Shown in pieces: positions 25,485 to 50,367 of a DNA stretch of 64,000 nt (its first letter is position 1; every line of letters starts with the position of its first letter). The stretch comes from Isoetes taiwanensis (Eukaryota; Streptophyta; Lycopodiopsida; Isoetales; Isoetaceae), in the NCBI GenBank assembly GCA_021234155.1, contig JAJEKV010000409.1:62001-126000 (forward strand), read 5' to 3'. The position numbers were made by a program, and so were the translations under genes. Under the pieces are notes generated by a model. The model ran no database searches, was not told the origin of the DNA, and saw only the letters and a list, made by a program, of their open reading frames with translations.

Positions 25485-25512
25485 TTCTTTTTGCTTTGCC
25501 TCTTTTTCAGAC

Positions 25513-26764
25513 ATGGCAGGATTTGAGCCTTACAGCCAAATGTCCCAAACAAGCTATTCCTCCTTCGTTCCTCTTTCTCAAGGCATTGATGACAATTCCT
25601 CTCCAGACATGCCAAACATCCAACCAACACCTCCTGTCGTTCACTATCCATACCGTCCAGTTAGTCGTCCCACATTATCCTTATCTTCATGCGTTCAGCC
25701 TTTCCGGACATGTCTGAGATGTCTGCTCCTCCTCCTGCTAGCATCTTCACCTATCCACCTATGTTTCAAAATGACACACCTGGCTCCCAAGGTGTTTCCA
25801 ATGAAACCATCTGAGAAAAAAAAGCGAGGTCGCAAACCCAAGATTGCTAAAACGCCAGTAGGAGATGTTGTGAAGGGCAGGGGCACTAACTGGAAGGATC
25901 ACTGGGTCGTTACGCTAATTCATCTTCGTGGACAGATGCACGAGGAATTTCTCACTAAAGCAGGTAGACAAGGTGTTGATATTTGGCACAAACTTTACGT
26001 GCAATTGGTTGCAAAGTGTCCGGACTTGGACAAGGACAGCGAGGCTTGCAGGAAGAAATGGCAAGCCGTGTATAAGGAGTACAAAGCTGATAAAAATCAG
26101 AATAACGTGTCTGGTGCGGAATGGAGTGAGACGTGCAGGTGGTATGATCTTGTAGATCAATACATGAACCAACGAGCACATGTTGTGTGCTATGCTCATG
26201 AAAGTGCAAGTGATGCTAACACTCCAATAGCAGATGATCTAGATGAAGTTGAAGAGATTGATGTGCCTAGTGTGGAAAAAAGAAAGGCACCAGAAGATAC
26301 ACCAAAGGAATCTGAAGAGAAACCCACCTGCGTGGCCCAGAAACCCAAGAAAATTAAGAATGCTGTAGCAGAGGTTGCGAAGGCTGTTAGTGCTATGATG
26401 GAATTCAATAAGAAGGCTCATGAAGAGAGCTTAGAATTGGAGAAGAAGAAGTGCTCCTACGAGGAGGAGAAAATATCAAGAGGAGCTACAAGAATGCATG
26501 GATAATGCTGCTCGAGACGCTTTACGAGAATTAGGTGTGGCTTCTGATGGTGTTGCAAATGTTTCAGATTCTGATCTTCAAGAGGAGGTGGTTATACTTC
26601 ATTATCCATTGGAGGATACTGCAAGAAGAGACGCATTAGCTAGAGCTTTGTATGAAGTAAGGAATTGCAAACATGGAGGAGGATTGATATGGATTTGTGC
26701 TGTAACTAAACAAAGTATTGCTACGTTGAATTATATTGTAAAGGACATGGCTCATATCATGTAG
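25513..26764 (+). pseudogene. Second copy of the trihelix ORF (Harbinger 5' end missing)
   Basis: Same protein as 20486-21731, starting MAGFEPYSQMSQTSYSSF. In this copy the N-terminal part reads in one frame through 26505, but its Pro-rich segment (about 25670-25800) is frameshifted. An extra base near 26474 (aaaatatcaag against aaaatccaag) breaks the coiled coil, and the C-terminus continues from 26498. The left TIR was not included in the duplication. The right TIR is present and ends at 26934, followed by TTA. Without a left TIR the copy cannot be mobilised. Confidence 0.85.
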
Positions 26765-26937
26765 TGGAAAATGTAAACTTTTAAGACATGTCTTATATTA
26801 TTGAGACATGTCTTATTTGTTATAATGAAAAAATGATAAAAATAAGACATGTCTTAAACATGATGTGGCATCATAAAATGGTGTCATATAATTATATGAC
26901 AGTCCTAAAATGTGACTGTAGTAGAAAATCACCCTTA

Positions 26938-27398
26938 AATCCTCCCCCACAGAAAGGGCTAGAGCATCAGCGGTAGTTAGAACCGTAGATTTTATATTTG
27001 CAAGAGCATAAATGTCATAGGGGTTCAGTTGGTGGCTTGTTAAACCTCATGGGCCGGTGACATGTTGGGTTCGCAAGTGTTTCTGGTCATTCCCGAGGTG
27101 GCACTTTCATATCATGGTCGCGAGACACCAAAGTAGTTTTCACATCAAAAGATAAATATGGTAGATGGTCACCCATCAAGTGGAAGCAAGGTGAACAGGT
27201 GTGGGGCATTGTAAATGTCTATGCCTCCAACGTGCCTAGGCAGCATGTCGCCATGTGGACTTTTTTAAAAAATAAATTGAAAAAATAGGGAGATAATACA
27301 ACTTGATTGCTGCTTGGAGACTTTAATATGGTTGATGCCAATTTTGAAAGGCTTGATGGTGGTGAGGCCATTTCAGAATTCAAGAAGGAATGTGATAA
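26938..27398 (+). pseudogene. LINE endonuclease, unit 2 copy
   Basis: Copy of 21908-22352 with the same stops. It keeps a short segment (ggtgaggccatttcagaatt at about 27361-27380) that is deleted in unit 1, so unit 2 better preserves the ancestral LINE text next to the LTR. Confidence 0.85.
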
Positions 27399-28636
27399 GG
27401 TGACGTTCCACATATTTATACGCCTTTTGGGTATAAATACATGACATGTCACTATGAATAATTAATGGTGCATTAATTATTCATAAGCTAAGGGTAGCTA
27501 TGTTAATCATTAATTGTTAAGGTGGAAACCTAACCTTAAATCCTAATTCGAATTTAGGGCCTAACCTAATATTAAAAGGGGTTAAAATATTAAATTAGTT
27601 AATAATAACCAATCCAGAGTTGCCACCTGGCCCAAATCGATTGGGCAAGGCAGGCTTGCTAATTTGGGACATCCAAATTGGGGCTTCCACCCCAATTTGC
27701 CCCAATTTGAATTGGGAGAGATTGGTGGAGGAGAAGCTACTATTCAAACTTGGTTCCAGCCAGAAGAATAGAGAACCAGAGAGATAGCTACGATACCGCT
27801 TAGTTTTAGCATAGCTTGTATTCTTCTGACCCTGTTTGAGTAGGTGGATGATTAAATTTGATTCTATGATCTATTTATGATGATGATGGATGTTTGTATT
27901 TGATTGTTGTTTTCTCTTTCAGTTCCTCCTCTGTTTTATTGGATTAAGGGGGGTAGAGACCTAAAAGCTATCTAGATTTAGTGATGCTCCTAACTAGAAT
28001 CCCTTAAATCCCATTAAATGCGGCCTGTGCACAAGATCCCACTTGGCTGTAGATGCTATATTGTGATTCAGCACCAGATAACGAGCATGATGGTGGAACG
28101 GAGATGGAATCCTACCTAGTTTGACTACAGGATTCCTATAGTGTGCTAGGCTTATAATTGGTCCTCGCGTTGGGGCCGAGTATGGGTCTGACACCCTCCG
28201 GGTCATAAGATACGTGCCTAAACGGACGTCTTGGGCTCAATGAGCGCGCCAGTGCAGCCTATGGATTTTGGGGGGTTAAAGTCAGGTACAGATGCGTGTT
28301 CACCAAGGATGGCACAATCCTCTAGCCACCCATGGAACCATCATGTTCTGGGAGTGAATTCATCTCCTCCCTGCCTTATCGGACCGGGGAGATGTAATTC
28401 GGAGTAGTCTCATAGGGTGAATCCATGAGATTACGCCTCCGGAAGGCTATAACCACGTCATAACATGATATAATCTATCTGCAAAGTGTGCACAGGAGGG
28501 GCGGATAGAGTGGACCAACCTAGCCATTGTTCTATGCCAGCCAATGCCATTGTCATGATTCCTTCTGTTGTTATCCGGAGGCCCTGACTGTCAGTTGACC
28601 CCCCCGACTGCCAGTTGACCCCCTGACTGTCAGTTG
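27399..28636 (+). mobile_element. Solo LTR, unit 2 copy, 3' end deleted
   Basis: Copy of 22353-23871, starting GGTGACGTTCCACATATTTA. It is broken near 28600 by the deletion. Three near-identical words (ctgactgtcagttgacc, gactgccagttgacc, ctgactgtcagttgacc) lie at the joint, after which LINE sequence resumes at acctcgactgcatcataaaa. Confidence 0.85.
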
Positions 28637-29733
28637 ACCTCGACTGCATCATAAAAATTATGTTCTCCAAACTATTTTTGACTATCATCCTCAGATCATT
28701 GGTTCAATGGACCTGCCTCTCATGTTCCCAATGAAATTGTATTCAAGCTGAATGCTCAGTATTTGAAAATTGAGGATTTCATTGCTGGGTGTCGTTGGGT
28801 CTGAGAGTCTACACCCTCCGATCCCAGTCTAATGAGGAGACTTATGAGCACATTGGCAAATGTCAAGGCGTACGCTAAGCAGTAGAGTGGGAATTTTAAC
28901 CAATAGTACAATGAGCTCTAGCAGATTTGGCTTCAGGGAGGCTCTCATGCTCGGGAAGCAGAGTTGGTCGGAGAGATCCAGGAACTTGAATCCAAAAGTA
29001 TCAAAGCAGATAAAGTGAAACCAGGCCTTTTGTGGTTAAAGGAGGGTGACAGGTACACAAAATCATTTTTCTCAACTGCTCGACTGTGGTGCCAAAGTTC
29101 GGCTCTCACCTCTATCCAGGTGAAGTGGAGACCATGTTTCCACATAAAACAATTTCTCATTTTGCATTTCACGTCTTCCTTTCAGAGAAAAGCACTCTCT
29201 TTTCACGAGGAAGCGATAGACCTTGTACTCTCAAAAATCGTACCTATTATCTCTTCTATGCAGCGGCAGAAACTCAAGGTTTCCCTCACATAAGCAGACA
29301 TATTTTGGATAATATAGCTGCGGCATACAGAGGCACGTATTGAGCGAGGAAAACTAAACAGAAAGTAGTTTACCTCATGGATGTTCATGATAGCATCTCA
29401 TGGATGTTCCTCTGTCGCATCATGGACAAACTAGGTTTTGGTCCCGTTCACCTCCATAGTTTGGAAATTGTTGAGGAATCATTTAGAGTACTTCTTCACA
29501 ATAGCATCTCATGGATATTCATCTGTCGCATCATGGACAAACTAGGTTTTGGTCCCACGTTCGCCTCCATCGTTTGGAAATTGTTGAGGTCTGCTAAAGT
29601 AACGGTTCTTTTTCAAGGGCATTCATCAGATTTCTTCACAGTGGAAACAGGCATTAGGCAGAGCTGTCCACTTGCCCCATTCCTTTTCACTATTATAGCC
29701 GAGGGATTCTTCTGTAGGGCGATGGATGATGGT
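28637..29733 (+). pseudogene. LINE linker and RT, unit 2 copy
   Basis: Copy of about 24003-25110 with the same landmarks: KPGLLWLKEGDRYTKSFFST, the 111-bp internal duplication, and TGIRQSCPLAPFLFTIIAEG. It starts later because the endonuclease end was deleted. It ends at the LTR insertion at 29734, the same site as in unit 1. Confidence 0.85.
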
Positions 29734-31126
29734 TGTGACATTCCAGCATAATATACGGTATGAATATGTATATTATACTGCCACATCACTAGTACATGTC
29801 GACCTTGACGAAATGTACATGGCGACCGTAAAGGGTTGCACCCTAGGGGGAAACTTCTCATGTTGCACATGCCTTTAAAATGTGCATATAACCCCATCTT
29901 GCCACGTGGCAAAGCCCTACATGACCTTTTGGCCGTAATCTAAAAGGGTCATGTAAAAGAGACTAGAACCCTAAACTTTTCCTTTTCGGATTCCACTCTC
30001 CAAGAGCTTGCCTCACCAACTGGTTGCACCATTCCTGCCTACCAAATGCCGGAAAGCCCGCTTTGCGCAACAGATCTTCCGAACTCGTTCGTCTTCGGCC
30101 CGATCAGGAGCATGGACACCTTCCGAGGAGCTGGAGCAAGTCAAGGATCAGGTAAACGGCTATTTTGTTGTGCAATGCCAACTTCCAGTTCGGCATTAGG
30201 CCGAGTTAGTATGTTAGATTAGCCTTAGAGGCCTTATAGATTCCAAGATCGTAATCTCTAACGAAAGAACCTAACCATGTATGTTAGATAGATAGATTAG
30301 ATGATGTTCTATTGTTCTGTTCTACGGATGATTATGATTGAATTCTATGAATTCATATGTATTAGGAAGGGGGGTAGAGACCCTGAAGGCCTTAGTAGAT
30401 TATGCACCTAGTTAACCTCCATAATTCCCAAATAAGTGCGGCCCGTGCATAAGAGCCCGCCTGGCTGTGGGTGGCAGGCTAGATCGGTGTATAAAGACGA
30501 CATGTTCCATTACAGATTGATCTCTCTGGTGTATAAAGCCTACCAAGAATCTTAATGAGCTAGGCCTGATGGTTTGGCACTGATGTGGGCAAGGCATGGG
30601 CTCGACACCTCTTGGGTGATGCGTCACCTTCAATGGGATTCAAGTCATAGATGAGTAGTGGCTCTCTAGCCACATGTAATGGGCATGCGTGGCTTTGGAG
30701 GGAGTGATCTCCTCCTGCCTTATCGAGACTAGAGGGATGCAACCCAAGAGTAGCCCCTTTGGCTATGCACCCGGTAGGCTACGGTCAAGTCCAAGACATA
30801 TCAGTCTATTCTACAAAATATGCACAGGAAGGGCGGATGGAGCGGACTACCCAATGACCATGTTCTATGCCAGTCAAGTCCATTGTTATGAACTCTGTCT
30901 GCTTTGGCCTCTGGAGACCTGAGCCGTTAGTCGATCCCCATGAGTCTGAGCCTTGGGTAGGATTCCCCTTATGTTGATGTTGTTATCGCAGGTGCTATGT
31001 TATGTTGAGCCACCTTCCAAGGTGGAACTATATGTATTTAATACTATGCGCTTATCTCGTTTACGCTTCCACAGCTAGGTCGATCCCGAGGGTGATGGGA
31101 TGAATGACACGTTCATTCTGCCCCAT
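29734..31126 (+). mobile_element. Gypsy-type LTR in LINE RT (3' limit approximate)
   Basis: It starts TGTGACATTCCAGCATAATA directly after LINE RT and carries the family landmark ggggggtagagacc near 30370. It can be followed to about ttcattctgcccca at 31126. A clear GTCACA terminus and target duplication are not visible, so the 3' end is uncertain or eroded. The first 372 bp belong to duplication unit 2; the rest is single-copy here. Confidence 0.75.
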
Positions 31127-33024: not shown

Positions 33025-33505
33025 TGTGACATTCCAGCACAGTATACAGTCCCAGGACGTATACTGTACTGCATCGTCATACATACACGCCATCCCGATT
33101 GACGTATACGCCGACGTGTAGCTAAGCAAGTAGCGCCCTAGGGGGCAACTTGCAAGTGTGTGTACATTTATTCATGTGTGCACTTTAACCCACTTAAATA
33201 ATAAGTGGGCATCTCAAGGGTCGATGGAAACCCTAGCCCTAACTTATAGCCTATATAAGGTATCCAAACCCTAACTTTCCATTTTCGTCCACAGCCTTCT
33301 AGGGATCCGTTTCGCTTGCTCCAAGAGTCGATCTTGGCTCCCGAAGTCTGTCTGAGCAGATCAGCTCATCAGCTTTCCTTTCCGGCTTCATCTTCAAGCA
33401 GTTCAGCAACATGGACGCGCTCAGGGCAGGAGGAGCAAGCCAGGGATCAGGTATTTTGCCAATTCAATAGTCTAATCCGCCCCCCAGGCATAGAGTAAGT
33501 AGGTT

Positions 33506-34285
33506 TCTAGAGCCTAGTTGCACTCAACCAACACAATGCAACAACCTGCTGATAATGAGCCATGTGGCCCTCCCCTTTATTTCCAAAATAGCAGTACAAC
33601 AATATTTCACTTCTAATAAACCGTCATTTCTAATAATCCCTCATGCACACCGGCCTTTTTGGGTATACAAAAGCATCAAAGTACCACAAAGGATCCAAAA
33701 CTCAAATAAGTTCATAGAGATTTATAGACCTCCGTCGCTAATGTCCAACACGACCCCAACAAGTCAAGATTCTTGCGAAACTCGCAAAGGGCATCTCGAC
33801 ATCCACCTTGAGCAGATCTGCAAAAGACACAAAGAAACACCTGGTACGAGGACCCCAATCTTGGCACAAAGGCTGCCACATCTAAGGCATACGAGGGCCT
33901 ACCACCAAGGCGCAAGGGCCCTCGACATCGACTCCACTGACAACCCAACATTCAAGACATAAGAGTCGCCCCAACAACAATGCTTGGCATGAGAGCCTCC
34001 AACCCATTGTACAAGACAACCTCGCAAGATCGAGAAGTCGAACAAGGAGCCAATCAACATAAAAAACTAAGACATTGACTATAAGAATACTACAATCATG
34101 CAAGGTTGTAACGCATGGCTAAAACTAAAAAGGGGGGGCATGCGACTACAAAGGGGAGGCTCAAAAGACGGCTGATGAAGATGGGAGGAATGCAACAAGT
34201 CTATAAATACTCCAAGGGGGACTCTCACAACTAGCCTCAAGAAGCGGATTTATCTGCTAATCTCAAAACGCAGATAAATCGCACT
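33506..34285 (+). mobile_element. Rolling-circle-like (Helitron/Helentron) unit 1, 780 bp
   Basis: It starts TCTAGAGCCTAGTTGCACTC and ends ..gcagataaatcgcact. Near the 3' end is a hairpin, gcggatttatctgc / gcagataaatcgc (13 bp with one bulge, 12-nt loop). It shares its first 47 bp and last 149 bp with the adjacent unit, but the interior is unrelated. There is no target duplication: the host reads gtt^tag with the unit inserted between two Ts. A TC start, a 3' hairpin, no duplication, head-to-tail tandem copies and conserved ends with differing interiors all suggest a rolling-circle element. The CTRR terminus of classic Helitrons is absent; insertion between T and T is what Helentron (Helitron2) types do. 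Confidence 0.65.
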
Positions 34286-37200
34286 TCTAGAGCCTAGTTG
34301 CACTCAACCAACACAATGCAACAACCTGCTGAAACAAGAGGCAGAAAGACAAGAAACTAAAAGTCTAAACTATCATAAGCTTAGCACTCAAAACATAGCC
34401 GAAAGGAACCAATCCTAGAGCATCTCACAAAAATGAAATAAAGTGCAAGGGAAGGAACATCAAACGAGAAAAGATCATGACGTAGGGACCTGACTCACTA
34501 AAAATAACATCAACGGATGCCGAAAAATCAAACTATAGCTCCATCAACAAGGGGTGGGGACTACACGTGTCCAAACCACCACACCACCATCGCAATTCCG
34601 AAAGGTTAAACACAACATACTCACTTACTAAAAAAATAGTACAACATATTCACTCGCTAAGAAAAAATAGTGGACCTAAAAAAAAGGCTCCATCAAACCA
34701 ACCAAGCTACCAACATGAACGATCCTAAGTTTAATAACTCAACATACCACTCCTACTCAATTACAATGAATGCTAGGACTAGAAGACACAACAAAATGCT
34801 ATGACGCTACAAAAATCAATGAAGGCATGTGACTACCACAAAACAAGGCTCGAAGGACAACTAGGCTGAAAGATCTTGCACTACCACCGCATACCGGCAC
34901 AAGGATTAACCAAGGCGGACTGCCCTTCAAAAACCCACGCGGGCACGTGAACACCACTCAACTCTGTACATACCAATCAACTCCATAGAAAAGTAGACAA
35001 TTATCAACTTCAGAAGGAGGTGAGGAGCTTCAAAAATCGAAGTACCATTGCACCACTTGGAACCCAAAATACTATGAGGATCGAAAGGCACTAGAAGTCA
35101 CAGGGAGTCCCTAACTTCTACTCCCCTAAACCAAGTAGGCAATAAGGCAAGAGCCATTCACCACCTAGCACAAAGGTCATTTTCACCTCTCAACAAACAA
35201 CATCGACAAAATAAAATCTCTAACCCTCATGAATCGGCAACCGCACAAAGGTAAAATATGAAGTCACTCATGTGCATACGACCTAAACCTAAGGAGAGGA
35301 ATTTGACGTTGCAAAGATAGACAATATAAGTTGGAAACTACGCAAGATATAATAACAGACTGGCACTACGATTGCTAAGGGCTCTTGAAAACCACAAGAG
35401 ATGAAAATACAAACAAATAAACCCATGAACTAGACGACACAAGACTTGGGAAAAGAAAAAGTGGACATTAACAGAAATGAACTCTAAAATGAAATAGACT
35501 ACTAGCGGGACATCAAAAGCAAAACAGCACGCCATACTCTATTCCGCTTCCTGTTCTTAATGTCTTGCCAAGCAATTCTTTAACATCTTGCCAAGCAACA
35601 CAAAAATCTCAGTCCACTTAAAAATCTATATTGCTTGCCCAACAATAAAATGGAGAAAATGACATTTCTCGGCACACTGGAGCCCCCTAGGACTTCATCT
35701 ACTGTACCCTCTCTCTTCCATACATAATGGGACTAAAGAGAATCTTGTTGTGGTTGCTACCCGAAATGAAACATGCACAGAAACAAGCTTAAAGAACCTA
35801 ATGAAACTCAAGCTGGAATAAAAAAGTCCAAACCATGCTAGCATATGATAAGGCGCTCTTGACGAGAAAAATGAGAACACAGACCACACTCTAAACTAAT
35901 GCCTGTAAACAATCCACACCCTAAACTAATGCCTGCAGGCTGGTACATGACACCGTAAGAGACTAAAGCAGCACCACAAAGTAGGAAGGACAAACTAAGG
36001 TACAAAAAACAAAGAGCAAAAAGGACACTGTTACAAAATCCCAAGGCAGTTACCACAACTCATGCCAGCCACACCTCGAGCCAATTAGGAAGACTGTAAC
36101 CCCAAATAGGGGCCCTACAAAACTAGCAACCAAGCAGTACTAGAAAGTTCTAGGAAACAATAAATAGCAGCATACTTTGGCAGTCTCTATGCTAGCATCT
36201 ACTGAGAGAAATTCCAGCATCTAATGAGAGAAGTTCGTGCATCTAACAAGAGAAATTCCAAATGAAATAATAGGGACAGGCTACTAATAAACACCCACAA
36301 GTTGAACATACTCAATAGGGGCAAATAAAGATAAGGCAAGGACAAGATAGAATCAAAGAGCCCAACTACTGCTTTATTAAAATCCACAAGGGCTTAACTA
36401 TCCATACGCTAAGTGAAGATTGTACCATCAGGCTGAAGGGAACCACATCCAAGTGAAAATTGTACCAACGTAGCTACCAATAAACACTCACAACATGCAG
36501 ACAACATGCTCAATAACAACAACATGCTAAAAATGAATGGGTACTTGCTGCTCAAGACCGTATCTAGAAATGGACAAGAGAGGACAAAATCGCCTAAAAA
36601 AACCACTAGTACCTACTGAACACTCATGAGATGTCACACTCCAAGCAAAATTAACTAATGAACACTCGTGAGATGTAGACCACACAATCTAACATAAAAC
36701 AAAGGCCTACTTACTAGCTGCTTAGAACTGTATCCAGAATGCCCATTTCCGCTACCCCACAATCTAACAGAAATCAAATGCCTACTTACTTGGCACTACA
36801 AGCTAAAACAGACTTAGACAAGGATGTCCAACAAAATCGAAGTGTTGTGGCATAAACATGTATCCATACGTTATCAAACTAGCCATCATAAACAAAGACG
36901 AGAAGGTAAGCACACCTCCTAAAATCAAAGTCGCATGCAAGAAACCATCTGTACATGCGCACAAAATGTCAGTTTATAACACATTACAAACTGCCATGGA
37001 CTATTAGTTCATGCGCACGATTCTGCAGTGTACTACATCTCTTGCAGTTTACAGGGCTCAACTCACAGCTCCAACACCACGGCGAAGAATCCAGCATCAT
37101 ACATAACCATCTAAGGCCATGGCAGCTATGCAGGAAAACCAAGATAACAGCTCCATCTCTACTGACCAACTGCTTTGCACAATGCTATGAAGCTCAAACC

Positions 37201-39601
37201 AAGCTGGGATCCAAATAACACAATGGTACACGGTCAACAAAAACTAAAAGGCCTTAGCAGATTCAGACAGATGGGAAAGAGACCGACATTCAGCAGGAAA
37301 CCAAACCTATCCAAGTCTCATAGCAAGTATTGTGTGTATGCAGAAGTTAAAACTGTCCAGTAACATAAACTATAAGAATTGTGACGAAGTCAAACCCTGC
37401 CAGAAAGCATTACTGCACGGTGATGTGAACAATTGTGATGAAGCCAAATCCTACCAGAAAAACATTACTGCACGGTGATGTGAACAATTGTGATGGAGGC
37501 AAATCCTGCCAGAAAAGCATTACTGCACGGTGGTGTGAAACTTGGACTATAGAAATAGAGATTACCACAAAGAGACTGGCACAAACTCAAAGGAAGAGAG
37601 ACATTGGAAGTGCTGATCAAGCGAGACAAATAACACCTGCAAGAGAGACTGTAATAACGTTCGGCCATGGATATGCAAAATTCACAGGGTCTCTAAAGGA
37701 ATAGATGACAAAACGCTGCTGGATATACTGACAAGCATGAGAGCAAGGGGGCACAATAGTCCAGCCAAAAAGCCGCATCAAGCTGTGTTCACCTAGCTCA
37801 TCACATCTTCCCTATCTCAACATAACGGAAAGCATGCTAATAGCATAGTGGCAACCAAAACCTATGACCCAGGGCATCCAAAAATACTATCTTTGGACCA
37901 AGCGAAAAGCACCCGGGAGAAGAGTGGCTAAGGATGGGCAAGGAGAAGAGTAACCAAGGACATCCGGGGACGGCGACTTCAAAGGAGAGACAATAAAATG
38001 CCAGACTACAGAATGTGGACCACTACAAGAAACAAAGAGGGAGGAACTGGGGGCAAAAAAGGATTAAGGCAGGCAATGGCACCTGAGCAAACAGATCTAG
38101 ATCGAAGTACTATACAAATCTGGTGAACCAACAAAAGAAGATTGCCAAACAATCGCCGATTATCTCAAAACTCCTGATAGGCCATCGTGACAAGTCTCCA
38201 GAGATCAACTAAACCCAAATAAAATCAATCTGAGGCAACTTATAGGCTTACCGAGATCACAGGGACGAACTTTACTGAAGGGCACAAAGCACAGAGATGG
38301 ATACCTTAGGCTCAAGCAACACCAATATTAAATGAAATTAGCCATCTCCAGACACGTCCATAGCCAGTACCATCCATGAGATTGCAATCTTCTAGGTGAA
38401 CGTAACTTGAGATACTGCAATAGACTTAGTCCGAGCCACCAATTGCAACACAACATCATACTCCAAGCTCTGAACAAATGCATTCATTCCAAAAAAACAT
38501 AGAGAAGGGATCAAAATTTCACTCAGCTTGACACGTTCAAATCGAAAGGAGTGCATCAGAAACACGAACGTGAATCTGGAAGCTTAAAATGGCTAGAAAT
38601 AGAATAGGAGATGGAGCAATCCAAGGATGCACAAAAGGCCTTTGGACGTCAACCAAGGAATGTCATAGTGCAAAGAAAACAAATAGATCGGCTAAAATAC
38701 TCATCATGAACACAACCAATCAGCTCATGCATGCCAGAAATTATTGCGAAATTGACTTTACAGAGTATGTGATGCAGGGAACACTCATCCCACAACTATA
38801 ATACCTCCTTGCAACTGCAATCCTTCTCCGAGCAAAGCTATGGCAACTAAGGATATGACGTAGGAATTTATAGCCACGCCCAGAGACCGACGAACCTGTT
38901 CCTGCTAAAGCAACAAATGACAGAGAAAGCATCCTTGTCCTTCAAATAAAAACATAAACAATAAACCATAAAAGAATATCTCAGATCTCTATGCCAGCCT
39001 GGTCGGCAAGTGCCTGATGCCACAAGAATTTCAAAGAGAGCTCACACAATAGAACCACCGCCTCTGCAAAAGACTTTGCCCAGAATCCAGCCCCAAACCC
39101 TAGCTTGGCAGTTTACATGCAACAACGCACTCCAAAGGCTAGCTCGAACAACTCCAACACAAGTGCTTAAGTGCCGACTCAACCTGCTAAACCGCTGGCC
39201 TAGCTGCCGACTTAAACCGGAAGAGCATCTCTGGAACCCAACGCTGCTTTTACAAGAACTAAACCAACGAAAACATGGCTCTCGTAAACTCCTCGAGATT
39301 ATCTTGCACGAACACAACTGTTTGAACCAGGCACAAAATTGAACAATCAAATGGTCGCGGCCCACGTGAGAACGGGATCGCCCGCAACGAAAAGGAAATC
39401 GAGAATCCACAGTCGGCCACAAAGGGAGAGAATCGCCCAGAGAAGAAAATGGCATGCGACTACAAAGGGGGAGGCTCAAAAAGACGGCTGATGAAGATGG
39501 GAGGAATGCAACAAGTCTATAAATACTCCAAGGGGGACTCTCACAACTAGCCTCAAGAAGCGGATTTATCTGCTAATCTCAAAACGCAGATAAATCGCAC
39601 T
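34286..39601 (+). mobile_element. Rolling-circle-like unit 2, 5.3 kb, head-to-tail with unit 1
   Basis: The 5' 47 bp match unit 1, and the 3' 151 bp (39451-39601) match 34137-34285, including the terminal hairpin. The interior is A/C-rich on the plus strand, with only short ORFs on either strand. I see no Rep/helicase motif, so it is non-autonomous. Small internal tandem repeats occur at 36180-36260 and 37370-37540. The junction with unit 1 reads gcact^tctagagcc. Confidence 0.65.
37370..37540. repeat. Three tandem copies of a ~57-bp unit
   Basis: Each copy contains attactgcacggtgatgtga (ggtggtgtga in the third) preceded by aaatcctgccagaaa variants. It lies within the 5.3-kb rolling-circle-like unit and has no coding role. 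Confidence 0.85.
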
Positions 39602-40508
39602 TAGCCTATTGAATTGCCCATAGCAGCCACCTAGACCTCTAGATATCAAGCCATAACTAAAGAACCTAACTTCTGTGATTTAGATTAAATCTTGTTATTT
39701 AGTTCTTCTATGATATGAATGTGATGATGATGATCTCTGTGGAGATCATTGTATTGGGAGGGGGGGGTAGAGACCCTAAAAGCCTAGTAGTTTGATGCTC
39801 CTAGCTAGTCCTCTTTAATGCACTATTAAATTCGGCCTGCGTACAAGAGCCACACATGGTTGTGGGTGGAGGGGCCAGACTGGCTTACAAGGAGGTTCAT
39901 GTCCTGGCTCATGATCCGCCCCCTTGGGTAGTAAAGCCTATGGGGACTACTGATTGCACTAGACCTAATGCTGCCGCCCAGCGTCGCGGGCTTTGCATGG
40001 GTTCGACACTCTTGGAGTGGTGTACACCTTCCATGGAGTTCAGTCGAGTACAGGCAGTGGCCCTCTAGTCACCTTGAGTCAGCATGCCAGCCTCTTGTGG
40101 GAGCAATCCCTACCTGCCCCATCGGAACTGGGGAGATGCAACCCAGGAGTAGCCCCTTTGGCTATGCATCCCGCGGGCTACAGTCAGGTCCCAAGACTTT
40201 TCAACCTACTCTGCAAAGTGTGCACAGGAGGGGCGGATGGAGTGGACAACCCTAAGCCATGTTCTTATGCCAGCCAAATCCAATTGCCGTGAATTCTGTC
40301 TGCAATGACTTCTGGGGGCCCAAGCCGTCAGTCATCCCCCTCGAGTCTGAGCCTTGGGTAGGATCTCCATAGTCCCAGTAGTACTAACTTAGTAGGATTC
40401 TCAAACCTCGAAAAAGTGGAAAAAAAAAATTTCTCATTTTTTTTGTAGTATATGCTAAGCTAGTAACAGTTAGAAATTGAACTAAAATTTGACTAAGTGT
40501 GGAAATTG

Positions 40509-40571
40509 CTCATGGTATGCGCCAGAGCATCGACCTAAATTTTAGGTCAAACCCCAGGTGCACACCATGAG
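40509..40571 (+). repeat. 63-bp nested hairpin module, copy 1
   Basis: Outer arms CTCATGGTATGCGCC and GGTGCACACCATGAG pair at 13 of 15 positions; inner arms form GACCTAAATTTTAGGTC. It lies upstream of ORF1 in the chromovirus leader. Compared with copies 2 and 3, the T-A pair in CTCATGG/CCATGAG replaces C-G, a compensatory change that keeps the stem. Confidence 0.9.
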
Positions 40572-40699
40572 TAACTCACCCTATTCACCTTCAAACTTGA
40601 TGAATTTGAACAAGATAATATGCTAGATCGAATTTTAAGGTAAGGTTTAGCTGGAGTTATATATAACACCCCAGTAGGAGTACCGACTTGAAGTAAAAC

Positions 40700-41721
40700 A
40701 TGGTGCACACCAAACAGACTGCACGCAAATATCGACCAAGAGGAGTCGAGGCAAGAATCACTAGACGACCTGGCCGACATCATCAACCAGCGCTTAGACG
40801 AAGAAGCAGACATTGACTCTGAGGGTTCAATGGACGAAGAAACCCGCAGAGTATACGAGCAACTTGAAGAGGAGATACTACAGGAGGAGAGGGCAGAACG
40901 AGAACAGGCTGCCGACGAGCAAGACGAACTGAAGGAGCCCTCTCCCGAACCCACCTTAGAAGAAGAAATCGAGGTGTGGATTCAAATACAAAAGGCGAAG
41001 TCACAATGCCACAAGAGGAAAAAGGCCGAGAAGAAAAGGAAGCTAGAAGAACAGGAGGCAGAGGCAAAGAAGAAACTCAAGGGAAAGGGCAAGGAGGAGC
41101 CCAAGAGGAAACTGAAGACGACACCCAAGGTAAAAATTGTCATCAAGAAACGACAGCCTGACCAGCCACCATCTACTGACGACTCTGATGACGAGGATTA
41201 CCAGCCCTTCCCCAGCGGAGACCAAGAAGTAGGGAGCTCCTCAAAACAGCCGAGGATCAGCAGGTACAGGCACCCCCACCCTACCCCACGTGGGAGAAGG
41301 AGAAAGATCCAAAGAAGCTGACCCGACCTGCCCGGGAGTCGTACGTGGTAGACCATCTCAGGGTCTAGAGATGGTCTACCAGAAGAAATTAAAGGCCTAC
41401 AAGGAATACATGAAGAAATGGGAGGCCTACAACTCCTACTATCAGGCAAACAAGGTCACTTACATCGAGGGAGGATGGCCATCGAAGAAGAAGACTCTCA
41501 AGCCGCCTCCAGAGAAGCCAGTACCCCCCAAGAAGCCAGTAGCAAGGAAGCCGAGAGATCCGGCATTTTCAGAGAAGTTACGGCCTTCTCATCCCCCGAG
41601 CACCATTCGCCAGACTCGTCAAGGAGGTCGTACAAGAGTTCGACACGAGCATGAGAGTCACAGGCGAAATGCTGCTAGCCTTACAGGAAGTAGCAGAGCA
41701 GAAGTTGGTGCAGCATTTTGA
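40700..41721 (+). pseudogene. Chromovirus ORF1: histone H3-tail-like start plus charged coiled coil
   Basis: The ATG at 40700 opens MVHTKQTARKYRPRG. Residues TKQTARK are identical to histone H3 residues 3-9 (K4 to K9). A one-base shift near 40733 moves into the long frame DQEESRQESLDDLADIINQR, followed by an acidic/basic Glu-Lys-Arg coiled coil (about 40830-41110), a basic region KVKIVIKKRQP and DDSDDEDYQPFP. Two more frame changes near 41260-41330 lead to MVYQKKLKAYKEYMKKWEAY and a Pro/Lys-rich end, PPPEKPVPPKKPVARKP. I know no family for the body of this protein. Its position before gag is unusual for a chromovirus. It may be an accessory nucleoprotein, or part of another inserted element. 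Confidence 0.6.
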
Positions 41722-41954
41722 GGATTCGAGGGCGTGCATTTGCACACCAAGAGAGTAACATTGATGACCAAGGACATGCTTGGCAAGTTCTATTAAAGGA
41801 GAACGTTAAATCTTGTAAATAATAAATTTTGTAAATAAAAAGTTTTGTAGAACAAGTTTTAAGTTTATAAATGTTGTTAATGAGGTTGAATTAGCAGTAA
41901 TTGCTTTTTGTTTTAGTTAAAATGGACTTCATATGGTCAAGGAGTGAGAATTTA

Positions 41955-42017
41955 TTCACGGTATGCGCCAGAGCATCGACCTAAATTTTAGGTCAGGCCC
42001 CAGGCGCACACCGTGAG
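41955..42017 (+). repeat. 63-bp nested hairpin module, copy 2
   Basis: Outer arms TTCACGGTATGCGCC and GGCGCACACCGTGAG; inner GACCTAAATTTTAGGTC. Same length and spacing as copies 1 and 3. It lies between ORF1 and ORF2. Confidence 0.9.
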
Positions 42018-42158
42018 TATTTTGCATCAAAAAAGGGTCCTAACCATCTCCAAACTGGGTAAGTAAGGGGTCAATCTTGCATATCTCGGTGAGACCATCA
42101 TGTTTTGACCGTTAGTTCATCCTGTTTAGATAAGTTTTGACCAAGTAGGGCCGAATTA

Positions 42159-42221
42159 CTCACGGTATGCGCCAGGACCTCGACCTAAAATTTAGGTCAG
42201 CCTTCTAGCGCACACCGTGAG
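42159..42221 (+). repeat. 63-bp nested hairpin module, copy 3
   Basis: Outer arms CTCACGGTATGCGCC and (A)GCGCACACCGTGAG; inner GACCTAAAATTTAGGTC. The sequence just upstream (ttttgaccaagtaggg.. gaatta) resembles the upstream context of copies 1 and 2, so the repeated module is longer than the hairpin itself. Confidence 0.9.
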
Positions 42222-42415
42222 TATTTTCAGCATTATCTCTTTCATGCTACCTCCAATTGACCTCAAATTTGTTGCAGTAGGTTCATTAGGTAGTCTTATT
42301 CATGTTCAGACCCTCAAAATAGCCTTCAAATCCTCATTTTGACCTCAAAATAGGTGAGACATGCCAAACCCAAAAATTTACCAAGTTTTCCAAAAAATTA
42401 GGGTTTTTCCCTTTT

Positions 42416-42427: not shown

Positions 42428-42944
42428 GCCCCCCATATCTCGTTAGCACCTTACGGGTTTGCTCCCAGCTTTTAGGGCGATCTTCCAAACCCCTTTAGGC
42501 TTCAAGAGTCGTTTGCTAGTCTCACTCGGTCGAGATCAATGGCAACTTCTGATTTCGTGCTGATGCGGTGCCGGTGCTCATGTGGGCGAGGCTGATATCA
42601 ATGCCATTTTGCAGTTTTCCGGAAGGAGATAGACATCCAAGCCACCTTGCTGTGCAAGCCCATCCTATATGGAAGTCATGATCGAAGTTCCAAACTAGGG
42701 TAGGACCCTTCTTAGTATGACTTCCCCTTGCCGCGAGGGGATATTTTGTTCCTAAGCAATCCCTCCAAGCGACCTTGGGTGATGTCCCGAACATTGCCAA
42801 GTACACGAACAACAAGGTTGCTAGATTGCCGATTACATGGTCATGACAGTTAATAGGGCGAAATATTTCTCCTATACCGCTGCCATAGCCATCTTTCTCT
42901 CTCACCGTGCCCAAAACCCAATCGGGGAACCATCTATCCCGGCC

Positions 42945-44014
42945 ATGGATGTAGACTCCTTAGCCTCTTCAGCAGAAGGTCAGCTCCTCTTGCAATATCA
43001 AACGGAGCAAGGAGGAAGAGCCGAAGACGAAGAGTTCAACTCAGACGACGAAGACTACGTCGAGCTCAACCCCAACCAAGGCGGCAACAAGCGGAAGCGA
43101 AGATCTGATCTTTTCGACCCGAGGACGTAGACCCACAGGATCGCTCCCCCCGCTCGGGCTAGGTATCACAAGCCTAGCCCCCATCATCATCAACGGCCAG
43201 GAGTACCTACTCCTGAGTGACATCCAGAACCTCCCCGAATGCAGGGCCAGGGAGTACAGGCGCGATGAGTTGCTGCACCTTCTGCGGCAACAACCAGATC
43301 TGGATGAGTTTATCGATCGGGAGGCTTTCGACTTCCCAATCAACGTAAGAGAAGCCGACGCCTACACCGGGAAGTCGACTTCAGATATTCAGGCATATAG
43401 CAGCATCCGCCAATTGATGACTATTTCGGGATCCGCCGAAGAAGAAAGAATCGCCATCCAAGAATGGATGGGGATCTGCAGCAAGACCACAAGTATTTTG
43501 ATGCCGAGTTCTTCGACACCAGCTTCCCCGATGTCCGAAGAAGGCGAGATCAACCCGGCGAGCCTCGCATCAACAATAAGGGACGGCGAGACCGATGGAG
43601 GTGCGATGGATGAATATGCGGGGAAGACATAGAGCTAGTGCCGAACCCGACGAAGAATCAACAAGAAGGCGAGGGGACAAGTCCCTAAGGTATTACCTTC
43701 CTCTGCTGTTGGACGGGAGAATAGCGATCATCCACCGCAAATTCAGCCCAAGGGGCGAAGAAGAAGTATTCATGCTCATCGCACTCTCAGGCTTTGGTAG
43801 GCATGCTCGGCTAATTCCAACAGTTGACCATGTCATCCTAGTCAAGAGAATGGTGGCACTGGATATCTTTGACTTCGCGGTACCCTACCAACGGCAGGGA
43901 AGATTAGCAGTGACCGCGGCCTACACTTCCGACCGCAGGGTAGAAGACTTGATGGCAGCCTTGCAGGGCGGAACACTAACGAACATCCTCAGGAACTTGG
44001 GAAGCTCGGTATGA
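42945..44014 (+). pseudogene. Chromovirus ORF2, unknown acidic protein
   Basis: It starts MDVDSLASSAEGQLLLQYQT and has an acidic patch EDEEFNSDDEDYVELNPN and a basic GNKRKRRSD. After a frame change near 43120 it continues with APIIINGQEYLLLSDIQNLP and DELLHLLRQQPDLDEFIDRE. Another frame change near 43600 leads to SLRYYLPLLLDGRIAIIHRK and ALDIFDFAVPYQRQGRLAVT, then a stop at 44014. I do not recognise the family. It precedes gag and could be a second accessory ORF or part of a long gag precursor; the LINE and LTR families nearby offer no match. Confidence 0.55.
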
Positions 44015-44245: not shown

Positions 44246-45540
44246 GTGTATGCAGCTAGAGGTCCAAGAGCAGCTGAGCAAGACCGGCGAGTCCATAGAG
44301 ATGAAGAGACCCCGGCCAAACAACACATAGCAAGGAACCTGTACGAAGAATTCGGTCCCATGACTCCCGAAGAGGAGATGTCGCAGATGAGATCGGACCT
44401 TCAAGAAATAAAGGCCTTATTGGCAAATAAGCAAAGCGTGGTGGCCTGCACCACAACGCCGGGGCTGTCGTAAGCACCACCTCGAAAGACGGGAAAGGAT
44501 AAGAAGAAGAGTAAGAGAAGGAGGTCCCCTAGCATGGACTCCTCCGACACAAGCTCACAATCAGACTCCGACTCCGAGGAAGAGGTGGAAGAGGTGCAGG
44601 ACCGTAGGGATGGCAGACTCAGGGACACAAGGACCTCAGACTACCAGAAGAAAGTAGACTCCGCACCGAGCAATGTGTGGAAGGCAAGAAAGCTCGAACA
44701 GTTCTCAGGTGACAGTCGGTCAGGCATGGAGGCAGAGGCCTGGCTGGACGAGATGAGGGAATATGGGAATGCATACGGAATGAAGGACAAAGACAAAGGC
44801 ATGGTGGCTATACAGCAAACTTGAAGGGAGCAGCCAGAATATGGTGGACGGGATATGCTAAGGCACATGGATTGAGCAGGGACAGCTGCAGATTCAAGAA
44901 GTTCGCTAAAGCATTCAAGCGCCACTATGTGCCAAGGGAGCACAAATGCCACATGATGCAGCAATTCTATCGGCTAGAGCAGAGCAACAAATCCGTGCAG
45001 AAATACACGGAAGAGTTCATGAAACTGAGGCTTTATGTGCGAAGCCGAAAGTGAACGCCTTATGCAATCTGGAAGGGTACATCGAGGGATTAAACGATGA
45101 GATAAGGAAGATGGTAAGAGCAATTAATCCTCGAACAAGATCGTGGCCAAATCGAAGTAGTCACCAAGAAGGATCCGCCCTTAGAACAAGGCGTAAAACA
45201 AAGAAGCATTACCGTGATAAGGGCAAAGCACGGGGAGTTATAGCCCTAGGGCAGCTAGGAAGAGGGACCAAAGAAAGGCCCCATACGCTGGGGATTATGG
45301 GAGGCAAAGAGAAAAGAAACGTGTATCCTTCAAGGATAAGCCGCAGCAAGAAGGGTCAAACTACTTGAAGACGGTGCGATCCTTTTTACACGCAATGCCT
45401 AAGGAGAAGAGGCAGGAGTGCATTGAGAAACAGCTCTACTTCAGGTACTTCCAGCCAGGCCACAGAACAACAAACTGCCCTTTTGTCATGAGTGCAGCAT
45501 TAGCAGAGTTGGGTGGAAGCGCGCGACTTCATTCAGGGTG
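44246..45540 (+). pseudogene. Chromovirus gag (retrotrans_gag domain)
   Basis: An N-terminal linker (YEEFGPMTPEEEMSQMRSDL), an RS/acidic region and then the capsid-like domain: KLEQFSGDSRSGMEAEAWLD, GAARIWWTGYAKAHGLS, FAKAFKRHYVPREHK, MMQQFYRLEQSNKSVQKYTE, EFMKLRLYV. A zinc-knuckle relic follows near 45435-45480: FRYFQPGHRTTNCP keeps His and the last Cys but has lost the first Cys pair. Frame changes occur near 44820 (a T lost from a TTT), 45050 and 45370. Gag normally packages element RNA into virus-like particles; this copy cannot. Confidence 0.85.
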
Positions 45541-45589
45541 AGTGTCACATCTTTTGAGCCATAGATTCAGACCAAGCAGAAAATTAGTA

Positions 45590-45907
45590 TCAGGTAATCT
45601 CCACAGTAGGGAAGGACAAGGCCAAGTCTTTTATAGTCCTGATAGATACGGGAGCACCCACAATTTTGCGTCTCCAAGAATGGTCGAGATGTTGAAGCTC
45701 AAGCCGTTGAAGTCGAAACCGAGATCCGTGGTGCTAGCAAGCGGGGCAGTGAGACACACGGCAGGCAAGAGGATAAATTTTGACATCGATTTGCCAGGGA
45801 TCAACATCCAAATGGGGAGCGTAGTGATGAACATCGGAAGTATGATTTAATCATCGCGATGGAGTACCGCCCAAAGAAAGGCCATCATCGACCGTGGAAA
45901 TCGTAAA
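45590..45907 (+). pseudogene. Chromovirus aspartic protease
   Basis: FIVLIDTGAPT holds the D-T-G catalytic triad of retropepsins. After a one-base shift right behind it the frame continues THNFASPRMVEMLKLKPLKS and GKRINFDIDLPGINIQMGS, the usual body of Gypsy proteases. The shift and later stops make it inactive. It lies between gag and RT, as expected. Confidence 0.85.
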
Positions 45908-46990
45908 GTGACCTTGACGGCGCCCAACGGCAAGATCATAGAAATTGCAGGTAAGGGAGTTGTTCCTATCATGCAATGTATGTCTAGTAAGCGGCTGCTT
46001 AAGTGCATAAAGAGCGAGCAGGTAGCCTATGTCTTCAAGCTTCAGATCGAAGAGCCCGAGTCAGAAGAAAGCAAGGAAGATAAGATGCTCAGCAAATTAC
46101 CAAAGCAGATAGCTAAGTTGGTAAAGGAGTTCCATGATCTCTTCCCAGACGAGATCAAGCAGCTTCCTCCTTACAAGGGAGTCGAGTGCGAGATAGCACT
46201 CGAATCAGGTACGAAGCCAACGAGCAAAGCGCCGTACCAGATGAGGACGCAAGAGCTAGCCGAGTTGAAGAAGCAATTGCAGGAGTTGCTTGACCTAGGG
46301 TTCATTAGACCTAGCGTCTCACCATTTGGGACACCTATCCTTTTTGTGAAGAAGAAGGATGACAGCTTGAGGATGTGCATAGATTATAGGCAGCTAAACA
46401 AGCACACCATCAAGAATAAGTATGCACTCCCGAGATCAGACGATCTGATGGATCAGCTCCAAGGCGCGAAGGTTTTCGCCAAGATAGACCTGAGGTCAGG
46501 GTACCATCAGATCAGGATTAAGGAAGAAGAAGTCCACAAAACAGCATTCAGGACCAGGTATGGGCATTACGAGTTCATCATAATGCCATTGGTTTGTCAA
46601 ACGCCCCAGCAACGTTCATGAGGCTTATGAACGACGTCTTCAGGGAGTTTTTGGATACTTTTGTTATAGTATTCTTTGATGATATTCTAGTGTACAGCAA
46701 ATCCCTGGAAGAACACGTACAACACCTCAGGAAAGTGCTCGAGAAGCTAAGAAGGCACCAGTTGTACGCTAAGTTGTCGAAGTGCCACTTCGCAACGGAG
46801 AGGGTAGAATATCTGGGGTACGTGATCTCAGCGGAAGGAATTCAAATCCTGCCAAGATCGAAGCAGTCATACATTGGCCAGCGCCGAAGAACATCCATGA
46901 GGTCAGAAGTTTTCTCGGCCTAGCAGGGTATTATAGAAAGTTCGTGAAGAACTTTGCAAAAATAGCGGCCCCGCTAAAGGATTTGACGAG
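45908..46990 (+). pseudogene. Chromovirus reverse transcriptase
   Basis: RT landmarks in order: [95 protein letters not shown], then [15 protein letters not shown], the catalytic box FFDDILVYS, and [11 protein letters not shown]. The primer-grip/thumb region follows in another frame: [20 protein letters not shown]. There are two frame changes: one at 46593 (ccattgg for the expected ccatttgg) and one near 46850. RT normally copies the element RNA in particles. The domain is complete apart from these shifts. Confidence 0.93.
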
Positions 46991-47660
46991 GGCGGATTTC
47001 ATGAGTGCCTTTTGGCAGGACCTTTTTGCGATGATCCAGACGAAACTGTCCATGAGCACGGCCTATCATCCTCAAACGGATGGGCAAACAGAACGGACCA
47101 ACAGAATCTTGAAAGATATGCTAAGAAACTATGTCTGGAACAAGCAAACTAAGTGGGAAGATTACATTCACTTGGTTGAGTTCGCTTATAATAGCACCAA
47201 GCAGGAATCATCCCAGATGTCGCCGTTCATGATCAACTACAGCTACCAATGTCTGACTCCAGACACTTGGCACAATCCTGTGTTAAAGGTAGAGGTTTCG
47301 CAGCAAATGTTGGCCGACATGCAGCAGCTGGTAGAAGAGGTTCTAGGATATCTTCATCTTCTTGCAGCAAGGAGCCGATAAAAGAGCGTCGCCGACAAGC
47401 ACCGAACGGTCAGAGAGTTCCAGGTTGGCGACAACGCCTGGCTCAAGATCAAAGTGAAGCAGGCAAAGCTCCGCATCGGAAATTGTAAGAAGCTTGCTCC
47501 AAGGTGGGCTGACCCCTTCATAATAGCCAAGAGAGTAGGTAACCAATCCTACAAGTTAGAGCTGCCAGCACACCTGAAAATTCATAAAGTCTTCCACGTG
47601 AGTTTGCTGAAGAAGCATACTCCAAACCAGAAGAAGTCTTGGACACGCCAACGTTGTTGT
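46991..47660 (+). pseudogene. Chromovirus integrase C-terminal half; RNase H and integrase N-terminus deleted
   Basis: Directly after the RT thumb ([10 protein letters not shown]) the text jumps to [20 protein letters not shown] and [16 protein letters not shown], the end of the integrase core with the catalytic Glu region. RNase H, the HHCC zinc finger and the first two catalytic Asp motifs are missing, so a deletion of roughly 2 kb joins RT to integrase in frame. Downstream, after a stop near 47381, come VADKHRTVREFQVGDNAWLK and the GPY/F-type module APRWADPFIIAKRVGNQSYK, then HKVFHVSLLKKHTP. Confidence 0.9.
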
Positions 47661-47662
47661 AA

Positions 47663-47974
47663 ATGACAGAAGAGCAGCTAGAGATAGTCCCAAACTTAAT
47701 CCTTGATAAGGCGATCAAGAAGACAAGGAGATCAGAGTTTCTCCAATATTTGGTCAAGTGGAAACACTTGCCAGTGGAAGACGCGACGTGGGTACTTAAG
47801 CAGGACCTCATAAGGCAGTACCCGCAGTTCATGGAGCAATGGGATGGCAAGGTAATCTCCGAAGTAATCGGCTCAGGCATGTCGATTACGTTTAGAGTAG
47901 TTTCATGTGTAGTTAAGATTAATCTACGCGTGCAGCCTATGCTAAGTATGGGTTGCATGTGTAATTACCGATGA
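47663..47974 (+). pseudogene. Chromovirus chromodomain (end of pol)
   Basis: LEIVPNLILDKAIKKTRRSE followed by FLQYLVKWKHLPVEDATWVL and KQDLIRQYPQFMEQW is a chromodomain. The central Trp of the methyl-lysine cage is present (VKWK). The first and third cage positions are not aromatic (I in EIV, L in WKHL), the group II pattern described for many plant chromovirus chromodomains. In functional elements it steers integration toward heterochromatin. It sits directly after the integrase module, separated by a frame break. Confidence 0.9.
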
Positions 47975-48856: not shown

Positions 48857-50367
48857 TGTGACGTTCCAGCACAGTATACAGTCCCAGGACGTATACTGTA
48901 TTGCATCGTCACGCGTACACGCCATCCCAATTGACGTATACGCCGACGTGTAGCTAAGCAAGTAGCGCCCTAGGAGGCAACTTGCAAGTGTGTGTACATT
49001 TATTCATGTGTGCACTTTAGCCCACTTAAATAATAAGTGGGCATCTCAAGGGTCGATGGAAACCCTAGCCCTAACTTATAGCCTATATAAGGTATCCAAA
49101 CCCTAACTTTCCATTTTCGTCCACAATCTTCTAGGGATCCGTTTCGCTTGCTCCAAGAGTCGCTCTTAGCTCCCAAAGTCCGTTCGAAAGGCATCAGCCA
49201 TCGCCTTTCCTTTTCGGCTTCATCTTCGGCGGTTTAGCAACATGAACGACTTTCGAAAGGGGGAGGAGCAAGCCGGGGATGGGTATTTTGCCAATTCAAT
49301 AGTCTAATCCGCCTTCCAGGCATAGATTAAGTAGGTTTAGCCTATTGAATTGCCCATAGCAGCCATCTAGACCTCTAGATATCAAGCCATAACTAAAGAA
49401 CCTAACTTCTGTGATTTAGATTAAATCTTGTTCTTTAGTTCTTCTATGATATGAATGTGATGATGATCTCTGTGGAATCATTGTATTGGGAAGGGGGGTA
49501 GAGACCCTAAAAGCCTAGTAGTTTGATGCTCCTATCTAGTCCTCTTTAATGCATTATTAAATTCGCCTCAGGTACAAGAGCCACACCGATTGTGGGTGGA
49601 GGGGCCGCATCGGGCTTACAAGGAGGTTCATGTCCCTCGCTCATGATCACGCCCCTCGGGTAGTAAAGCCTATCGGGGACTACGGTGCACTAGACCTAAT
49701 GCTCTCACCTGCAGCGGCTTTGCATGGGTTCGACACTCTTGGAGTGGTGTACACCTTCCATGGAGTTGACCGAGTACGGCAGTGGCCCTCTAGTCACCTT
49801 GAGTCAAAGATGCGGCCTCTTGTGGGAGCAATCCCACCGCCCCATCTAACCGGGAGATGCAACCCGTGAGTAGCCCCTTTGGCTATGCATCCCATGGGCT
49901 CTGATCAGGTCCCAAGACTTTTCAACCTACTGCAAAGTGTGCACTGGGAGGGGGATGGAGTGGACTACCCTAAGCCATGTTCTTATGCCAGCCAAATCCA
50001 ATTGCCGTGAATTATGTTTGCAATGACTTCTGGAGGCCCAAGCCGTCAGTCATCCCCCTCGAGTCTGAGCCTTGGGTAGGATCTCCATATGTGATGTGCT
50101 GATCTCTGTCTATGCAGATATGCGGTGAACCATCCTTCGTGATGGTCAGGTGATGTTGATGTATGTATACTTACATGTATGTTACGCTTCCGCAGCTAGG
50201 TAGGCCCTGAGGGAGACAGGGTAAAATGACCCCTTCATTCTTCCCACTGGAACTCGTCAAGGTTGTAGTGATACGTGGAGGGCCTTGTATCAGCATGGAG
50301 CTGGTATGGGGGATGAACTCCTGTTTGTATACGGTGAGTGCACCGTATATGAGTAGGGTACGTCACA
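48857..50367 (+). mobile_element. Chromovirus right LTR, 1511 bp, intact
   Basis: It starts TGTGACGTTCCAGCACAGTA, ends gggtacgtcaca, and is followed by CTAGC. Its TATA box is cctatataagg near 49083-49093. The landmark aaggggggtagagaccc lies near 49490. Inverted termini TGTGAC/GTCACA are present. Its internal sequence shows the empty site (gtaggtttagcc near 49331-49342) for the rolling-circle insertion in the left LTR. Confidence 0.93.

Follow-up and report, generated by a model that had tools for sequence, protein, structure and literature searches.

Quillwort (Isoetes taiwanensis) chromodomain Ty3/gypsy retrotransposons with an apparently captured histone H3 gene as their first open reading frame

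Introduction

A retrotransposon family of the quillwort Isoetes taiwanensis appears to make its own version of a protein that packages the DNA of its host and marks it, since a captured histone H3 gene has been kept under selection in many copies. The window analyzed here, a 64 kb stretch of DNA, is best read as holding a broken chromodomain Ty3/gypsy LTR retrotransposon whose first open reading frame (ORF1) encodes a captured and modified H3. The assignment of ORF1 as a captured histone H3 is regarded as nearly certain. Its layout is a methionine followed by the first nine residues of H3, a charged insert of ∼250–330 residues and an H3 core that ends where H3 ends, and it is repeated across the quillwort genome in at least six sequence groups. 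The best explanation of the case as a whole, and a rather probable one, is that a chromovirus makes its own H3 variant from this H3-derived ORF1 and that the variant acts in nucleosomes.

Short mimics of the H3 tail (SNAG-type LSD1 ligands, influenza NS1 and ADNP, for example) present H3-like N-terminal or tail sequence but are not known to have a histone core, whereas here tail and core stand in one H3-derived protein. Viral histones, such as those of nucleocytoplasmic large DNA viruses and bracovirus H4, are parasite-encoded core histones with an altered tail. To our knowledge, the present case differs from these in its LTR retrotransposon carrier, in involving H3 only and in a tail that is split by an insert.

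In Dothideomycete fungi, hAT DNA transposons have been reported to carry H3-like (H3L) genes (PMC3538342; PMC6710886), with 26 near-identical H3L genes in Pyrenophora tritici-repentis (PMC3538342) and 784 copies, mostly truncated and inactivated by RIP, in Pseudocercospora fijiensis, one of several species with such genes (PMC6710886). As in these fungi, a captured histone H3-like gene has been amplified by a mobile element (PMC3538342; PMC6710886), and as in the Pyrenophora genes the N-terminal tail bears insertions (PMC3538342). However, the fungal carriers are DNA transposons that have TIRs and encode a hAT transposase, instead of which LTRs and a reverse transcriptase were found here. Compared with what is described there, the quillwort case also differs in its diverged groups, its long-term purifying selection and an exact copy of H3 residues 1–9 beside a very long insert. 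The non-seed-plant chromoviruses such as Tcn1 and Galahad share the Ty3/gypsy order and the chromodomain and are known from lycophytes (PMC2864245); in contrast to the present element, no histone ORF is described for these or the others in the accessible text of that paper, in which the word 'histone' occurs once, on chromodomain targeting. No retrotransposon-encoded histone was found in the open-access literature, and 'histone' is absent from the accessible main text of the I. taiwanensis genome paper (PMC8566536).

Structure of the element in the window

All of the parts of the element listed here, from LTR to LTR, are on the forward strand. The element is bounded by a 5′ LTR at 39601–40371 (ends approximate) and a 3′ LTR at 49337–50089, which pair with 90.9% identity over 778 aligned columns. 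A leader inverted repeat at 40510–40573, found by a repeat search and self-BLAST, has relatives at 41956–42019 and 42153–42227; these three related copies of 64–86 bases lie around ORF1, with the arms GGTATGCGCC and GGTGCACACC, and may fold as RNA in the leader. The H3 tail motif that starts ORF1 (40700–40732) begins 0.33 kb past the 5′ LTR. It is followed by the first part of a charged linker at 40734–41321, open in another frame than the motif and matching the ORF1s of the relatives L006 (from query residue 38) and L038, by a second part containing the AYNSYYQANKVTYIEGG segment at 41374–41550 (end approximate; tblastn with the L038 and L023 ORF1s) and by the C-terminal H3 fold at 41552–41806, which is broken near 41.74 kb and was located by tblastn to host H3, L038 and L023.

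Remnants of a second frame, ORF2, which encodes a protein common to related elements, occupy 42837–44014 (tblastn to L072–L077 and alignments). A conserved stretch, RYYLPLL.DGRI..HR.FSPRGEE..ALSGFG.HAR, occurs in this region of the window, in L072–L076 and in L149. Neither the window nor the frames of its relatives gave a Pfam family for ORF2; this protein between the histone ORF and gag may be gag-like, a movement protein or a captured host domain. The gag remnants span 44534–45368, of which 44534–44821 matches frames of L074 and L075 and 44946–45368 is assigned by position; Pfam Retrotrans_gag was matched by the gag frames of L074 (1.1e-5) and L075 (5.5e-17), and no gag family by the window frames themselves. 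The protease region at 45542–45850 reached Asp_protease_2 below the cut-off (0.03) and matches the protease frame of L075 (RVP_2, 5.7e-10). The reverse transcriptase at 45908–46923, with a frame change near 46.6 kb, gave two matches to Pfam RVT_1 (1.2e-11 and 1e-19), and plant Ty3/gypsy reverse transcriptases were among its best protein matches. The end of this domain runs into an integrase remnant at 46782–47381 (rve_3 below the cut-off at 0.012; 77% identity over 70 residues to L072), and a group II-like chromodomain lies at 47663–47974 (Pfam Chromo, 4.7e-10). LTRs, gag, protease–reverse transcriptase, integrase and chromodomain thus stand in the order of a chromovirus, in a degraded copy with a weak integrase match and no identified RNase H. 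In five of six representatives, ORF2, gag and, where reached, protease–reverse transcriptase likewise follow ORF1 on the same strand.

Three further observations concern neighbouring insertions. Downstream of L006, the stretch L077 has its gag, protease and ORF2 matches on the opposite strand, so that another insertion follows that ORF1 copy. Within the window, 20455–30105 contains two 3 kb stretches that are 96.6% identical together with more repeats and represents a younger element, either nested or in tandem. The flanks outside both LTRs (39451–39602 and 48857–49338) match pieces at 33025–34332, a pattern suggesting that insertions with common ends are nested here.

The sequence-only reading had placed an H3 tail at the very start of an accessory chromovirus ORF, and this description holds: the ORF precedes gag, and the element is of the Ty3/gypsy type with a chromodomain. 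It had also proposed that the tail, once methylated, is read by the chromodomain of the element itself, which would tether the integrase. The chromodomain at the end of pol is present as this proposal expects, but it looks group II-like, with KWKHLP where HP1 has KWKGY, and the cage residues of HP1 are missing here. Group II chromodomains are described as devoid of an aromatic cage in the accessible text of PMC12786077. On these grounds the proposal is very improbable and the least likely among the functional readings.

The H3 tail motif

In the window, the ATG at 40700 starts MVHTKQTARKYRPRG, which meets a stop codon after 38 residues and opens with M-V-H-TKQTARK-Y (MVHTKQTARK). Its TKQTARK (40709–40729) is the sole match in the 64 kb, and none was found in 100 shuffled controls. 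Across the I. taiwanensis assembly (1,658,258,908 bases in 1110 contigs), TKQTARK is encoded 551 + 599 = 1150 times, compared with 0 + 1 for a reversed-pattern control. A chance match of seven residues, of which a single instance was met in a phage contig, where the start-codon pattern is off frame and interrupted by a stop, is therefore a negligible explanation given 1150 against 1 and an H3 core within the same ORF, and the original view that the motif is hard to put down to chance is borne out.

Seventy motif places, the first in order among 100 listed, were read together with the window; two of these 71 are host H3 genes and 69 are non-H3 copies, the window included. MARTKQTARK, which is Met plus H3 residues 1–9, starts 62 of the 69, the remaining starts being MAK, MER, MAL, IAR, I*R, WLG and MVH. 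In the window copy, V-H replaces the usual A-R, which limits its match to H3 residues 3–9; the earlier equation of the motif with these residues is right for this copy and too short for most of its relatives. Over their first 30 bases the 69 copies show 41 distinct sequences. The search left positions 2 and 3 free, yet Ala and Arg are each kept there in 65 of 69, with all four Ala and all six Arg codons in use. Conservation ceases directly past K9: residue 10 is P in 31, R in ten, F in nine, Y in six, V in six, A in five, T in one and a stop in one, and is never S. A plain H3 fragment running on past K9 was rejected, as the ORF1s with the 1–9 tail (class I) have no S-T-G-G-K there and their core resumes after the long insert.

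The break after the motif in the window, previously described as a frameshift, is real but more extensive. When residues 14–103 of L006 were used as an ORF1 query, the match to the window began only at query residue 38, so that ∼37 codons are also missing. Further breaks in its ORF1 lie near 41.3 kb and within the histone fold near 41.74 kb.

The histone core of ORF1

The three longest open ORF1s, L038, L023 and L033 (434, 388 and 382 residues), all end in a histone fold, with Pfam Histone E-values of 3e-23, 2.4e-21 and 5.4e-9, respectively. Against H3 chains in the PDB, the best match of L038 was 2.9e-24, and its tail gave a separate, weak alignment. In the alignment to host H3, columns 1–10 and the core match, and the 250–330 residues between them are insert. 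By tblastn the H3 fold was found in 57 of 68 non-H3 motif loci, many of the stretches ending about 1.5 kb downstream, and the other 11 of the 68 gave no fold match; the search as a whole matched 59 of 76 stretches, which include the two host H3 genes and six downstream stretches without the fold.

In the window the core is recognizable 0.85 kb downstream of the motif. Its fold (41552–41806, with stops) is 46.5% identical to host H3 (tblastn, 4e-17), 63% identical to L038 (3e-27) and 70% identical to L023 over 63 residues; the frame 41290–41718 alone has no Pfam match. The H3-type core thus rests on Pfam and PDB chains in the open relatives and on tblastn in the window copy. H3 residues 1–9 are found in class I, and residues 3–9 only in the window. 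The description of ORF1 as a histone tail mimic was correct in that the H3 tail is real, but a short linear mimic has no histone homology elsewhere in the protein, and here an H3 core lies in the same ORF1. Equally, no continuous K14–K36 tail joined to the core in a protein of about 136 residues was seen; because an insert of ∼250–330 residues follows K9, the ORF1 protein is H3-derived rather than a canonical H3.

Searches of public proteins with the window ORF1 linker (493 candidates, lengths 107–341) gave none at E 0.01, and none of 253 and 54 pattern stretches from GTDB and IMG/VR contigs was confirmed for it. Residues 275–434 of L038 gave 55 matches among 215 candidates (lengths 239–760) at identities of at most 58%; none of the 55 is named as a retroelement protein, and several are plainly H3 inside long gene models.

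Conservation of tail, linker and core

Loci were also found without the motif, using ORF1 from residue 14 on as the query. For each, the 160 bases surrounding the start were examined in all frames, and the frame matching best gave the score. Overall, 44 of 80 such loci were exact and 72 of 80 kept at least eight of the ten residues. In F6, the group of the window, 15 of 40 loci were exact, 32 had at least 8/10 and eight had fewer, two of these eight having an unrelated upstream stretch in common. The 20 F4 loci, taken at even list steps, included 15 exact tails and all had at least nine of ten residues; the F3 sample of 20 included 14 exact tails and all had at least eight of ten. The evidence for F1, F2 and F5 comes from motif-selected loci, motif-blind sampling covering F6, F4 and F3. 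The motif therefore recurs in other copies, including those found blind to it; its absence from them was what the sequence-only reading had named as grounds for abandoning its interpretation.

The tail is relaxed or changed in some branches. A7Y was present in 4/20 and K9R in 1/20 of the F4 sample, and K4E and R8P in 3/20 each of the F3 sample; because some sampled copies have lost K4, A7, R8 or K9, not every branch requires the tail. Sub-branches with tail variants (L161–L169 in F3; L126 and L135–L137 in F4) carry the changes K4E, T3M, R8P and A7Y, and offer natural variants for asking which tail residues matter.

The tail is constrained while the linker diverges. In the groups F1, F1A, F2, F3 and F4, tail pN/pS was 0, 0.11, 0, 0 and 0.03, compared with 0.43, 0.45, 0.46, 0.19 and 0.32 for the linker; as these loci were motif-selected the tail values are biased low, and the motif-blind sample is the fair test. 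F5, a single nearly identical pair, gave a linker value of 1.02 and an undefined tail value. The linker is highly charged in every ORF1 translation inspected, and ORF1 lies directly before ORF2 and gag. These features would suit a packaging protein whose histone fold and K/R-rich linker condense element RNA or cDNA in the particle, as a nucleocapsid does, with the tail as a by-product of capture. However, a by-product would not hold H3 residues 1–9 while the adjacent residues diverge, and this role is considered improbable.

The core is likewise under purifying selection. Among 18 open copies (16 element and two host), the median core dN/dS was 0.064 (IQR 0.041–0.078) in the 29 usable of 153 pairs; the other 124, among them the host H3 gene pair, were saturated, silent-site divergence between the sequence groups being very high. 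F67, E73, R83, C110, K115–T118, L126 and A127 are invariant in 16/16 class I and 7/7 class II cores (the second class is described below), and R63, a DNA contact in H3, is changed to P in 14/16 class I cores. Many copies are broken, the window among them, as would be the case if a captured gene fragment had merely been amplified with the element as a functionless passenger. This explanation is barely plausible in view of a core dN/dS of about 0.05 and of 67 among 150 scored F4 matches lying in open frames of at least 350 residues, a few of these matches containing a stop.

A second class of element-borne H3

A search with P0163, a protein of Paspalum vaginatum that is annotated as hypothetical and that we take to be a CENH3 by its sequence, including MARTKHPAVRK, gave 7562 first-look candidates, of which 146 were scored and ten fetched. 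Two of the ten are host H3, and the other eight belong to a second class of element ORF: seven are open, with 404–453 residues, and L146 was seen in part. Class II combines a different N-domain with a linker that is either Q-rich or charged and with an H3 core close to the canonical one (Pfam Histone 3.4e-43, 5.2e-41 and 2.2e-41 in the three ORFs tested). It is without the H3 1–9 start; its N-domain, MPRFKLTVDL... in six of the seven open ORFs with a relative in L143, is without a Pfam family. Core dN/dS was 0.05–0.07 in 14 of 15 pairs and 0.30 in the closest pair. The class II loci are L138–L143, L146 and L147, with the flanks L148 and L149, and many are in long open frames. ORF2-like frames, gag, protease and reverse transcriptase were found downstream of L139, the last three being 55, 54 and 64% identical to those of the window; downstream of L138, the proteins of the window were unmatched within 4.9 kb.

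Origin and comparison with CENH3

In trees of the core (about 90 residues), class I forms one side of a branch with support that is not strong (86/89), and class II groups near host H3. A single clade of all element H3s had a p-AU of 0.255, so that one origin is neither shown nor rejected by these alignments. Class I resembles plant CENH3, as represented by P0163, in its MARTK start, its long divergent tail and cores with LIP-AP in helix 1 and VTLM. In contrast, class I cores align to H3 without an insertion where CENH3 has its longer loop 1 (CATD), the insert is far longer and the gene is element-borne; core identity is 47–61% to P0163 compared with 49–67% to host H3. No CENH3 of the host was recognized in the 146 scored matches to P0163, ten of which were fetched.

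Discussion

In the proposed mechanism, removal of the methionine would leave an N-terminus equal to that of H3, with A1-R2-T3-K4 exposed, and the ORF1 core would pair with host H4. The protein would then join nucleosomes or nucleosome-like particles on new element DNA or on chosen chromatin, and its tail, on a long arm, would show K4 and K9 to host enzymes without S10. The element could thereby shape the chromatin state where it is inserted or packaged. Of the residues relevant to such assembly with H4, C110, K115–T118 and L126 are retained in 23/23 cores, and R63 is replaced by P in 14/16 class I cores.

The same tail could also act in solution, as a decoy that offers H3 residues to host writers, readers, erasers and chaperones of H3 and so weakens silencing of the element; KYP/SUVH, SHH1, ADCP1 and LDL are plant candidates. 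An exact A1–K9 tail with a free N-terminus on a long arm, kept in many copies, is what such a decoy would need, and residue 10 was never S in the 69 copies, so that S10 phosphorylation would be blocked. Competition with H3 for readers or, as the sequence-only reading had suggested, for modifying enzymes may occur. However, the constraint on the core exceeds the need of a decoy made of tail only, and in class II the core persists although the 1–9 tail is absent; this objection would not apply if the decoy worked by binding H4 or chaperones. We consider the soluble decoy unlikely, although less so than the packaging protein. A nucleosomal H3 is preferred to it because constraint on the core equals or exceeds that on the tail and because class II has lost or lacks the tail but retains the core.

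A nucleosomal role of the ORF1 protein, taken by itself, is given about an even chance. A fuller proposal is tentative and falls somewhat short of that: a long-lived chromovirus lineage may possess its own H3 variants in two architectures, which would form element-specific nucleosomes with host H4 and whose K9-capable, S10-free tail would write a heterochromatin address of its own on the element's DNA or landing sites.

These elements provide a test case for the gain of histone genes by mobile elements, and they call for caution, as homology searches for H3 or CENH3 in such genomes return element copies beside host genes. Tail, arm and core vary independently between the groups, so that nature itself has tested which parts of H3 are needed by a parasite. 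Chromoviruses are known to read chromatin at integration through their chromodomains; a lineage that makes a histone would write it and, if this is true, would be a retroelement carrying part of the chromatin that it inhabits.
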